A DNA stretch of 47,308 nt. It comes from Candidatus Nitrosopumilus sp. (GTDB lineage Archaea > Thermoproteota > Nitrososphaeria > Nitrososphaerales > Nitrososphaeraceae). How positions within the stretch are numbered: the first letter of the stretch is position 1; each line of letters starts with the position of its first letter. The position numbers and the translations under genes were made by a program. The stretch is taken from NCBI GenBank assembly GCA_013694585.1, contig JACDCB010000186.1, forward strand, positions 1-47,308, read 5' to 3'. This document shows positions 15,852-19,981 of the stretch, one piece after another. A model generated the notes under the pieces. The model ran no database searches. It had not been told where the DNA came from and saw only the letters and a list, made by a program, of their open reading frames with translations.

Positions 15852-16904
15852 GTGCTGTACCAAATCACCTCGGATGCAAAACATCAAATACTACTTACAA
15901 GCAAGGAAAAAAAAATATATCTAGATCCGAGGCAAATTTTAGCTGAAAATTATGTTTTCATTTCGCATGCACATATCGATCACATGTTAAATAAGACTGC
16001 TATCAAGAAATACAATTTAAGAAATAAGATTATGTGTTCGCCTGAAACTGTTGCAATTGCGAACCTTCGTGGCTACATCTTTGAAAAAGAAATTTGTTAT
16101 CAAGACGACTGCACATTAGTTGATACTGGGCATATTCTAGGATCAAAAGGTCTTTTGATTGGAAACGAGATTTTCTATACGGGTGACTTATCTATGAGGG
16201 ACAGAGCGTTTCTTAGGAAACCAACAATCCCACGAGCTGAAACCCTGATTATTGAAACTACCTTTGGGAAGCCTGATTATATTTTCCCTCCAATAGAACA
16301 GATTACACATTCGGTAAATTCTTTAATATCAGAAATGTATAGTAGAGGAATTCCAGTCATCTTAATGGGATATTCATTAGGGAAGGCGCAGGTTCTTACC
16401 TCATTATTTGGCGCTTGGAAGCCGCTAATCGTTCATGATGAAATATTCAAATTCAATCAAATGTACAAGCAATTTGGAGTTTCCTTAGAAGATTCTATAT
16501 CATTGTCAGATGCAAAAGAACTGGGTTTATTGGAGAAAGGACCATGGATAATGATACATCCTTTAACTAACGGCAAGCATCCCAAGATTGCTCATTATAG
16601 GGAAAAATATGGAGCAATTACGATTGGCTTTAGCGGATGGGGAATAAATAGAAATTACAGAAACATGATGAACCTTGATTATGTGATCCCTTTTAGCGAC
16701 CATTGTGATCATAGTGAATTACTGGAAGTTGTAAAAAAGTGCAACCCAAGTAAAATATATACATTTCATGGGTTTGAGGAAGAGTTTGCTAATTATCTAG
16801 TCAAATTGGGATATGACGCAGAATCCGTAACTAAAGGAAGTAGGACAGTCAAGAAAGAATCAAAGCGACTTCCGAAAACAAAATCATTAGATATTTATTT
16901 TTAA
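15852..16904 (+). CDS. Metallo-beta-lactamase-fold nuclease with C-terminal PCNA-box-like tail
   Basis: A 350-residue protein with the metal motif SHAHIDH (residues 38-44), TGHILGSKG (about 92-100), the Asp motif FYTGDLS, beta-CASP-like ETTFGKP, and the C-terminal RMMBL-like SDHCDHSELLEVV followed by IYTFHGF. The layout matches SNM1/ligase-associated or YSH1-like exonucleases acting on DNA or RNA. The last eight residues, TKSLDIYF, fit the hydrophobic pattern of a PCNA-interacting peptide after a basic linker (KKESKRLPK), which would favour a DNA-repair role. The start is GTG at 15852. It ends 12 bases from the convergent oxidoreductase gene. Confidence 0.85.
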   Translation: MLYQITSDAKHQILLTSKEKKIYLDPRQILAENYVFISHAHIDHMLNKTAIKKYNLRNKIMCSPETVAIANLRGYIFEKEICYQDDCTLVDTGHILGSKGLLIGNEIFYTGDLSMRDRAFLRKPTIPRAETLIIETTFGKPDYIFPPIEQITHSVNSLISEMYSRGIPVILMGYSLGKAQVLTSLFGAWKPLIVHDEIFKFNQMYKQFGVSLEDSISLSDAKELGLLEKGPWIMIHPLTNGKHPKIAHYREKYGAITIGFSGWGINRNYRNMMNLDYVIPFSDHCDHSELLEVVKKCNPSKIYTFHGFEEEFANYLVKLGYDAESVTKGSRTVKKESKRLPKTKSLDIYF

Positions 16905-16916
16905 GAAATAAAAAAG

Positions 16917-17996
16917 TTATTTTTGCATGTCAGCAAAATATGGAATAACTTTATTTCCAAAGGTCTCTATGTTTTGATAAAGCCCGTCACCCCAAAAACG
17001 AATTATGAAATGGTTTGTACCCGCTTTTATAAATCGTTCCAACATCTCTATTACCTCATCTGGGCTACCAACACCTATAGCAGTTCTTGCCACATCGTCT
17101 GGGATTTGCAAAGATGCTTTTTTCATTTGCTCCATTAACTCAGGTTTGTTCATGGCATATTCAGTAAAGTATCTCCTAAAATCAAACTCGGAATCCTGTT
17201 TTATGTTGTGAACCTTCAATAATTCAGGTTTGTAGAGGCTGACTTTAACCGCGTTTTTCATCTTTTCCCATGCCGCTTCTCCGTCTGCAGCAAAATATAC
17301 ATCAACATCATTTGCAAACTCAAAGTTGGATATGTCCCTGCCTAATCTCTTTGCGTGATCTTTGATAACATTTGCATGATGTTCAAATAAATCTGGAGTA
17401 TACCCTATCGGTATCCAACCGTCGCCAAAAGTTGCACACAGTTCTAGGGTTTTTGGTGCTCCGGCAGCGATATATATCGGTGGTCGCGGTTTTCTGATAG
17501 GTTTTGCTTGTAAACAAGCTTCAACAAGGCTATAATATTTACCCTGGTAATTTACATGATTGTCTGGATGGGATTCAAAAAGCTTTTCAATTACTTCCAA
17601 CTGCTCCTTAAATTTTGACACAGGTTTACTAAACTCAATGCCAAAATCAACTACATTCTGAGCCTCCCCAGCACCGATTCCTAATATGCCCCTTCCTTTA
17701 GTTATTCTGTCAAGAGTCACCGTCGACAAAGCAATAGTTGAAGGGTGCCTCCTAATGGCGTCTGTTACACATGTCCCTAACTCCACGTTGTTAGTCACCG
17801 CCCCAATTGCTGCTAACATTAACCAGGCATCATTTACTACAGCGTTTTTCCATTGAGGTACATTTGTGTGATCCATTGCCCAGACAGAGTCAAAATTAGT
17901 TCTATCTGCTATTTGTGCTGCAGTTATTACCTGCATTTCATCCAGCCCCAATCTAGCGACATTTAGGCCAAATGTCAAACCAAATTTTATTTTCAC
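16917..17996 (-). CDS. F420-type luciferase-like oxidoreductase (LLM family)
   Basis: A 359-residue TIM-barrel protein of the bacterial-luciferase-like superfamily. Family signatures are FDSVWAMDHTN (about 35-45), VELGTCVTDAIRRHP (about 71-85), GRGILGIGAGEAQN (about 101-114) and PIYIAAGAPKTLELCATFGDGW (about 173-194). Archaeal members usually use reduced F420 and include methylene-tetrahydromethanopterin reductase-like enzymes. Substrate cannot be told from sequence. CofE, encoded at 2515-3312, would supply the cofactor. The gene stands alone on its strand, convergent with the nuclease gene. Confidence 0.88.
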   Translation of the reverse strand: MKIKFGLTFGLNVARLGLDEMQVITAAQIADRTNFDSVWAMDHTNVPQWKNAVVNDAWLMLAAIGAVTNNVELGTCVTDAIRRHPSTIALSTVTLDRITKGRGILGIGAGEAQNVVDFGIEFSKPVSKFKEQLEVIEKLFESHPDNHVNYQGKYYSLVEACLQAKPIRKPRPPIYIAAGAPKTLELCATFGDGWIPIGYTPDLFEHHANVIKDHAKRLGRDISNFEFANDVDVYFAADGEAAWEKMKNAVKVSLYKPELLKVHNIKQDSEFDFRRYFTEYAMNKPELMEQMKKASLQIPDDVARTAIGVGSPDEVIEMLERFIKAGTNHFIIRFWGDGLYQNIETFGNKVIPYFADMQK

Positions 17997-18205: not shown

Positions 18206-19981
18206 ATGAATAAGAGTGACAAAACAATACTTGTTACAGGGAGTGGAACAGGGATTGGTCAAGCTGTGGCAAGGAAATTTGCTAAATTAGGTTACAATAT
18301 CATAATTTTAGGCAGGAGGAAAGAACCACTAATCGATGCGTCGAATATTTTAAAACAAATAATCACGGACGAAAAATTTGAATCGTCCGTCACTTATTAT
18401 CCAGGGGTAGATGTTTCCGATTTTGAAGCAATTAATACGATGTTTGATAAAATTAATACCGACTATGGTCAAATAGATATTATTGTAAATAATGCCGGAG
18501 TTTCTGGTCCAGTTAAGATTTTTACTAATTCAAGTTATCAAGAGTTTAAAGATTGTGTTTCAATTCACCTGACTGGTACTTTTTGGACAAGCATTAAAGC
18601 TTTAGAGTTACTCAGCAAAACAGGCAAGATAATTACAATCTCCACTTTCTTCACTGAGGAGAATAAATATGAACAGAGGCCATACAGGTTTAGAACACCA
18701 TACACTGCAGCACAGGGTGCAAAGAACAGACTATCTGAGTGTCTTTCTTGGGAACTAGTTGAGAAAGGTATCAAAGCCGTTGCAACAAACCCGGGTCCTG
18801 TTCATTCAGATAGAATATATAAAACCGTATACCCTAAAGCAGCAGCTGAATTTTTAAGAGTCGGAGGTTTTCCGGGTTTGAGTCACAAGCAAATCGAAGA
18901 GATTTCGGTTGCCTTATTACCATATTTGGGTGATGAACCCGAAACAATCGACACTGAATCGAAAAAAATAGCAACTTCCTTAGCTGAAAAATACAAAGAT
19001 TTAGATCCGGCCAAGACTCAACATTTGGCAAAGGAACTTTTGGCTAAGATTCAAGAAATCGCTGAAAAGGTGCAGAATAATACGAAAAAAATGATAGTTG
19101 ATAATGAATTCTTATCTCAGGATGATGTAGCTGAGATGGTACATAATTTAGCAAGCGATGAAATGAGCAAGTTATTAAACGGAAAAGTAATTCCAAATGA
19201 CAGGGTTTTCTACCCAGTAAAGCCAATAGTTGAAAGGACCATAGACATTGAGATGGACAAGACTCTAGAAAATAAAACAATTTTGATTACCACGACCTCC
19301 ACAGACGAAAAATTGTTGAACTTTATTAAAAAAATTGCAACTAAGATTAATGGTTTAAACGTAAAGCAACTAATTGTCCTTACACACAACGATGAACAAT
19401 CACCAGAAGTGAGCAAAATGTTTGAAGGATTTCACCATCACGCTATCGATTTAGGTAATGAGGATACAGTTAAGAAAATTTTCAATACAATCAATTCACG
19501 ATATGGTAGAACAGATTCAGTCATACATTTTACCGGTAGTTATGACTATGATAATGAATTAACTTCTCTTGATCGTAAAGAATGGGACAACTTCGTGGAT
19601 AACTTCGTTAATATCCCGCACCTAGTCACAACCGAATCAGTATTATCAATGACTACACACCAGGCGTTAGATGACCCTTCATTATTTAAAGGAGTTAAGG
19701 GAAACATCGTAATCGTCGGTCCTAATTCGCCGGTTGGGAAGAAAATAGGTGGTAAGGTCCGTGCCAGGTCAGAAGTTTTTAGGGGAGCGTTAAGACCATA
19801 TGTCACTACTGCCAACCAAGAACTTCATGATGTATTAAATTCCGACATAAATCTGACTCTCGTTTTACCAGGGAACATAAATGGTGATTTACCGGACTAT
19901 GACAAACTGGAGAATTCATTGATGGGTTTATGTTCGCAAGAAGCTCAAAAAAATAATTTAATCTATTATGTAGACGAATAA
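18206..19981 (+). CDS. Tandem short-chain dehydrogenase/reductase (two SDR domains)
   Basis: A 591-residue fusion of two Rossmann domains. Domain 1 (about 5-225) has the cofactor motif TGSGTGIG (11-18), NNAG (95-98), Ser146 in ITISTFF, and Tyr166. The usual YxxxK lysine is Gln170, while Lys173 gives the Y-x6-K spacing of FabI-type enoyl reductases. NPGPVHSDR (195-203) follows. Residues 230-345 form a charged helical linker. Domain 2 (about 350-591) keeps a Rossmann-like pattern but lacks the glycine motif and a YxxxK. This layout resembles either half of Chloroflexus-type bifunctional malonyl-CoA reductase. Substrate unknown; redox activity likely only in domain 1. Confidence 0.85.
   Translation: MNKSDKTILVTGSGTGIGQAVARKFAKLGYNIIILGRRKEPLIDASNILKQIITDEKFESSVTYYPGVDVSDFEAINTMFDKINTDYGQIDIIVNNAGVSGPVKIFTNSSYQEFKDCVSIHLTGTFWTSIKALELLSKTGKIITISTFFTEENKYEQRPYRFRTPYTAAQGAKNRLSECLSWELVEKGIKAVATNPGPVHSDRIYKTVYPKAAAEFLRVGGFPGLSHKQIEEISVALLPYLGDEPETIDTESKKIATSLAEKYKDLDPAKTQHLAKELLAKIQEIAEKVQNNTKKMIVDNEFLSQDDVAEMVHNLASDEMSKLLNGKVIPNDRVFYPVKPIVERTIDIEMDKTLENKTILITTTSTDEKLLNFIKKIATKINGLNVKQLIVLTHNDEQSPEVSKMFEGFHHHAIDLGNEDTVKKIFNTINSRYGRTDSVIHFTGSYDYDNELTSLDRKEWDNFVDNFVNIPHLVTTESVLSMTTHQALDDPSLFKGVKGNIVIVGPNSPVGKKIGGKVRARSEVFRGALRPYVTTANQELHDVLNSDINLTLVLPGNINGDLPDYDKLENSLMGLCSQEAQKNNLIYYVDE

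Follow-up and report, generated by a model that had tools for sequence, protein, structure and literature searches.

A tandem SDR protein of ammonia-oxidizing archaea as a candidate malonyl-CoA reductase related to the Chloroflexus enzyme

Two kinds of malonyl-CoA reductase (MCR) are relevant to CO2 fixation in ammonia-oxidizing archaea (AOA). The Sulfolobales enzyme is of the aspartate-semialdehyde-dehydrogenase (Asd) type, which is non-homologous to SDRs, and in Sulfolobales a single enzyme reduces both malonyl-CoA and succinyl-CoA. The bacterial, Chloroflexus-type enzyme is built of SDR domains, among which SDR3 is the malonyl-CoA-reducing domain and SDR1 the aldehyde-reducing one. The characterised malonate semialdehyde reductase belongs to the Fe-ADH family. 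In the Roseiflexus MCR, YxxRxxY has been described as the malonate-binding motif and R785 as a CoA-binding residue (PMC10470521). The AOA gene for MCR was listed as unassigned in 2018 (PMC6038301) and 2020 (PMC6964070), although MCR activity has been reported in N. maritimus extracts. A 2025 study of N. viennensis gives Asd as a putative candidate among cycle steps still to be proven (PMC12542715); its main text names no step, and we read the step meant as malonyl-CoA reduction. In N. cavascurensis, SDRs that share about 30% identity with the Chloroflexus enzyme have been mentioned as malonate semialdehyde reductase candidates (PMC5797428). In the open-access papers searched, we found no assignment to a function of the tandem-SDR protein described below.

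Gene, domain layout and distribution

The window, a stretch of 47,308 nucleotides, comes from a genome of the Nitrosocosmicus group that carries archaeal amoA; among named genomes, Candidatus Nitrosocosmicus MAGs come nearest to it (90%). The open reading frame at 18206-19981 on the forward strand begins with ATG and encodes a tandem-SDR protein of 591 aa, a candidate MCR in the form of a single 'half-MCR'. The sequence-only reading had proposed a two-Rossmann layout, and the domain searches bear this out. The catalytic SDR core (residues 1-203; 18206-18814, as all features below on the forward strand) matches PF00106 with an E of 1e-38. It is followed by an inserted helical cap (residues 205-300; 18818-19105), which opens with an invariant YKTVYPKAA and appears to sit in place of the 'extra domain' of MCR, and by the C-terminal strand and helix of the catalytic SDR (residues 301-342; 19106-19231). 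The auxiliary second domain (residues 350-591; 19253-19978) is a degenerate SDR, detected by profile (best natural SDR match, E 5e-6) and fold only; its glycine-rich motif and YxxxK are both absent, as in SDR2 and SDR4 of MCR.

Conservation was analyzed in 35 aligned sequences, which were drawn from four ammonia-oxidizer families and share 46-90% overall identity with the window protein, and it rules out a chance or decaying open frame. Across AOA, the neighbours of the gene encode TauE, a tRNA endonuclease, a PhoU-like protein, DNA ligase, sulphite reductase, PurK and cation efflux; among the neighbours inspected in different AOA there were no carbon-fixation genes. In the window itself, the gene is adjoined by an F420-type LLM oxidoreductase (16917-17996, reverse strand), which is Mer-like but scores under the Mer cut-off, and a beta-CASP/MBL exonuclease-like protein is encoded at 15852-16904 (forward strand), with TIGR04122 as its best model, far under that model's cut-off.

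We also searched 300 sampled Nitrososphaeria genomes, 215 of which encode the family, all belonging to the four families that have AmoA (f1, f2, f3 and f5). Both proteins occurred in 198 genomes, the tandem SDR only in 17, AmoA only in three and neither in 82; the Fisher p of 3e-52 for this association is an overstatement because the genomes are related, and tracking of AmoA would suit any core protein of AOA. In a sample of 397 genomes across the phylum, all 83 matches fell within the same families and none elsewhere. Absence from other autotrophic Nitrososphaerota had been named in advance as an argument against the candidate; the protein was present in all autotrophic ammonia-oxidizer families sampled. 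One genome (G227) holds two full-length copies, at C47:20512-22272 and C82:1451-3211; it has 3% contamination and perhaps comprises two strains. The plasmids searched for MCR or full-length homologues yielded none, only single SDRs. Found in virtually all AOA and nowhere else in the phylum sample, and MCR-like in build, the tandem SDR is a testable candidate for a missing enzyme of CO2 fixation in these very abundant microbes, and it offers a single gene, present as one copy in nearly every genome, for expression and assay.

Kinship to bacterial malonyl-CoA reductase

Structure prediction and a phylogeny with MCR and FabI had been suggested as checks by the sequence-only reading, and both place the protein with MCR. 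Two AF2 models were made, the second of which, from 35 sequences (the first alignment was smaller), reached a pLDDT of 87 and a pTM of 0.89, with low confidence in the active-site loop at residues 150-157. When the model was searched against 350,542 PDB chains, the best 25 matches were all bacterial MCRs covering both SDR domains (TMq 0.65-0.71, E 1e-25 to 9e-19), and the first model gave the same outcome, with MCR in all 25 top places. The control 2et6, an unrelated tandem SDR, reached a TMq of 0.53 with an rmsd of 17.7, and single SDRs a TMq of about 0.35. When the PDB was searched by sequence with phmmer and with a profile, the full-length MCRs 8hjw and 8hi4 came first (E 1.8e-44), with both catalytic domains matched. 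Per domain, SDR3 of MCR scored 83 bits versus 89 bits for glucose dehydrogenase 1g6k. Given that this per-domain score is not exceptional, fold and tree were needed, and the case for MCR is made by fold, clade and motifs.

Next, we inferred an ML tree of SDR domains from two MCRs, represented by fragments from PDB alignments, and 14-19 other SDRs, with FabI as the outgroup. The catalytic domain of AOA formed one clade with SDR1 and SDR3 of MCR (support 95/93, or 95/94 without long branches); in the first tree this clade also held the long-branched 5unl. Together with the fold and the motifs, this makes kinship to the Chloroflexus MCR, as the sequence-only reading had suggested, well supported. 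Within the clade, the archaeal domain was placed nearer SDR1 (96/85), and placement with SDR3 was not rejected (p 0.13). The fold match to the N-terminal half of MCR was equally good (TMt 0.76-0.77 for two N-half structures). Both results would also suit a protein that, like the N-terminal half, reduces malonate semialdehyde to 3-hydroxypropionate, or that carries out both steps in one site. We consider this unlikely, since the spacing of the active site fits SDR3: the step from Ser/Thr to Tyr is 19 residues in the archaeal protein, 18 in SDR3 and 13 in SDR1, and in the aligned generic SDRs it is about as short as in SDR1.

Active site and proposed reaction

The YTAAQ sequence, the lysine at Y-x6-K spacing (K173) and the NPGPVHSDR stretch are exactly as the sequence-only reading had them. 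Since T147, Y160, R163, Y166, Q170, K173, R203 and R218 are each invariant in 35/35, the motifs are not due to chance. The NADP motifs are likewise all invariant, namely the dinucleotide-binding TGxxxGIG motif (TGSGTGIG, residues 11-18; 18236-18259), R37-R38 after strand 2 (18314-18319) and NNAG (residues 95-98; 18488-18499). The arginine pair aligns at or near R616 of MCR, and judged from sequence it suggests a preference for NADPH. T147 (18644-18646) is aligned with Thr165 of SDR1 and Ser731 of SDR3. Y160-xx-R163-xx-Y166 (18683-18703) corresponds to the malonate-binding motif, mapping onto Y743-R746-Y749 of the Roseiflexus enzyme; among the 19 non-MCR SDRs of the comparison panel, YxxRxxY occurred in 5unl only. 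In PGPVHSDRI (18791-18817), R203 is aligned with the CoA-binding arginine of MCR (R785 in Roseiflexus, R773 in Chloroflexus). A correspondence of R218 to R799 of the Roseiflexus extra domain is uncertain: a pairwise alignment puts R799 near R218, one residue off, and the multiple alignment places R799 elsewhere. The invariant R530 (19793-19795) may be the counterpart of Arg1164 in SDR4, which binds the CoA pyrophosphate; this is a guess, because sequence comparison of domain 2 with SDR4 gives generic SDR similarity only.

The catalytic lysine is a different matter. Q170 (18713-18715) occupies the canonical position (K753/K182 of MCR) in 35/35 sequences, whereas each of the 23 remaining SDRs in the panel has the lysine there. 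K173 (18722-18724; K in 35/35) lies one turn further along the helix of residues 164-183, at a position that is Gln in SDR3 and hydrophobic in the remaining SDRs compared. Substitution of the Roseiflexus lysine (K753A) abolished activity (PMC10470521), and its replacement by Gln in the archaeal protein is the strongest contrary fact to a reading as malonyl-CoA reductase. Loss of the canonical lysine in all members would also suit a regulatory or structural pseudo-enzyme, which the sequence-only reading had allowed for. However, the NADP site, Thr, Tyr and substrate motif are intact and invariant, and the active-site stretch is among the best-conserved parts of the protein, so that we regard a pseudo-enzyme as very unlikely. 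The displaced lysine had also been likened to that of FabI. The alignment does not sustain this: FabI keeps Lys in the canonical column and shifts Tyr, whereas the archaeal protein keeps Tyr and shifts Lys, so that the likeness is numerical only. Kinship to FabI or other enoyl reductases is ruled out by this alignment and by the tree, in which FabI falls outside the clade. Acryloyl-CoA reduction, a reaction conceivable for a FabI-like enzyme, has reportedly been demonstrated for another N. maritimus protein (PMC12542715).

From the fold, kinship, residues and distribution observed here, we infer a substrate, a reaction and a role for K173: the tandem SDR is probably the NADPH-dependent, CoA-releasing malonyl-CoA reductase of the AOA 3HP/4HB cycle. 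It would be a Chloroflexus-type MCR cut to one half, with a catalytic SDR, a helical cap and a non-catalytic SDR. NADPH would be held in domain 1, the malonyl carboxylate would be gripped by Y160, R163 and Y166, and CoA would be bound by R203 and the cap and domain 2, the latter shaping the CoA site. Under the cap, hydride transfer to the thioester would yield CoA and malonate semialdehyde for the cycle, with the oxyanion stabilised by T147 and Y166. From its place one turn along the helix, K173 may grip the nicotinamide ribose, with Q170 in place of the usual lysine. Such a replacement would be tolerable because release of thiolate and aldehyde needs no final protonation of an alcohol. In an alcohol-forming SDR the product must be protonated, and therefore the loss of the lysine would be worse for a semialdehyde reductase.

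Other cycle genes and comparison with known systems

We also analyzed other genes of the cycle. Most AOA tested carry a strong Fe-ADH copy (E about 1e-25), which again argues against the tandem SDR as semialdehyde reductase. On the other side, it is present where that copy is missing, in six genomes of f3 (G067, G077, G080, G099, G164 and G137) and one of f5 (G112). This agrees with the literature on N. cavascurensis, which reports that the known Fe-ADH type of malonate semialdehyde reductase is absent there (PMC5797428).

The asd_EA search found one gene over the cut-off in AOA, as mostly in their non-AOA relatives, and no second, Sulfolobales-type MCR gene over the cut-off in AOA. Therefore, there is no Sulfolobales-type duplicate; we take the weak AOA paralogue for ArgC/LysY. 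The single copy, shared with relatives that do not oxidize ammonia, speaks against Asd as the malonyl-CoA reductase of AOA, with another role for the tandem SDR. Although Asd is a published putative candidate for a cycle step and increases in N. viennensis when carbon is limiting (PMC12542715), the cluster of proteins to which it belongs shows an enrichment for amino-acid metabolism, Asd's usual place, and we find this explanation quite improbable.

The dual use of one enzyme in Sulfolobales would also suit a tandem SDR that reduces succinyl-CoA, or both malonyl-CoA and succinyl-CoA. The AOA succinyl-CoA reductase is likewise listed as unassigned (PMC6038301). However, the MCR-type malonate motif is intact, and the tandem SDR is absent from 26/26 genomes of f4 and other non-AOA families with a 4-hydroxybutyryl-CoA-dehydratase-like gene, a broad gene family; such genomes, with strong HpaB_N genes and neither AmoA nor the tandem SDR, include G096, G169 and G199 (f4) and G246 (f12). 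A role in succinyl-CoA reduction thus seems improbable to us. In one genome, an HpaB_N match (G133:C1:943874-944677) lies inside an open frame that, at 1265 aa versus some 500 in relatives, may be a fusion.

The sequence-only reading had offered the protein as a candidate for a missing Sulfolobales-type MCR. Its candidacy for the step stands, but the type does not: the candidate is Chloroflexus-type, since the Sulfolobales MCR is Asd-type and unrelated to SDRs. A wider view, which we hold tentatively and at somewhat under an even chance, is that the missing enzyme of all AOA is an SDR sharing ancestry with the Chloroflexus enzyme, that this step therefore has a common origin in the 3HP/4HB cycle of archaea and the 3HP cycle of bacteria, that the displaced lysine suits thioester reduction and that, in AOA without the Fe-ADH semialdehyde reductase, the protein possibly performs both reductions. 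If malonyl-CoA reduction by the tandem SDR is confirmed, a gap in the 3HP/4HB cycle would be closed, the claim of an independent origin of its enzymes would be affected, and an SDR working without the canonical lysine would be exemplified.

With the Sulfolobales malonyl-/succinyl-CoA reductase, the tandem SDR, which has an SDR fold and not that of an Asd-family protein, has only the proposed reaction in common. FabI enoyl-ACP reductase, a single-domain protein, shares only the Tyr-x6-Lys count. The N-terminal half of MCR (SDR1-SDR2; 8hi6, 8aew) resembles the archaeal protein in its tandem SDR fold, in Thr for Ser and in being the nearest tree branch, but it has a short Ser-Tyr loop, the canonical lysine and a smaller cap. 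The C-terminal half (SDR3-ED-SDR4 of Chloroflexus, Roseiflexus and Porphyrobacter; 8j2c, 8hi5, 6k8s) differs in that MCR is a chain of about 1220 aa with two fused halves, whereas the archaeal protein is separate and, at 591 aa, equals one half; its cap has about 95 residues versus 150, its Ser/Thr-Tyr-Lys triad reads Tyr-x3-Gln, with a relocated lysine, in place of Tyr-x3-Lys, and identity in the structural alignment is about 15%. Nevertheless, the two share the order of catalytic SDR, inserted cap and auxiliary SDR, the common ancestry of the catalytic SDR, the long Ser-Tyr loop, YxxRxxY, the CoA arginine in PGPxxxDR and the overall fold.
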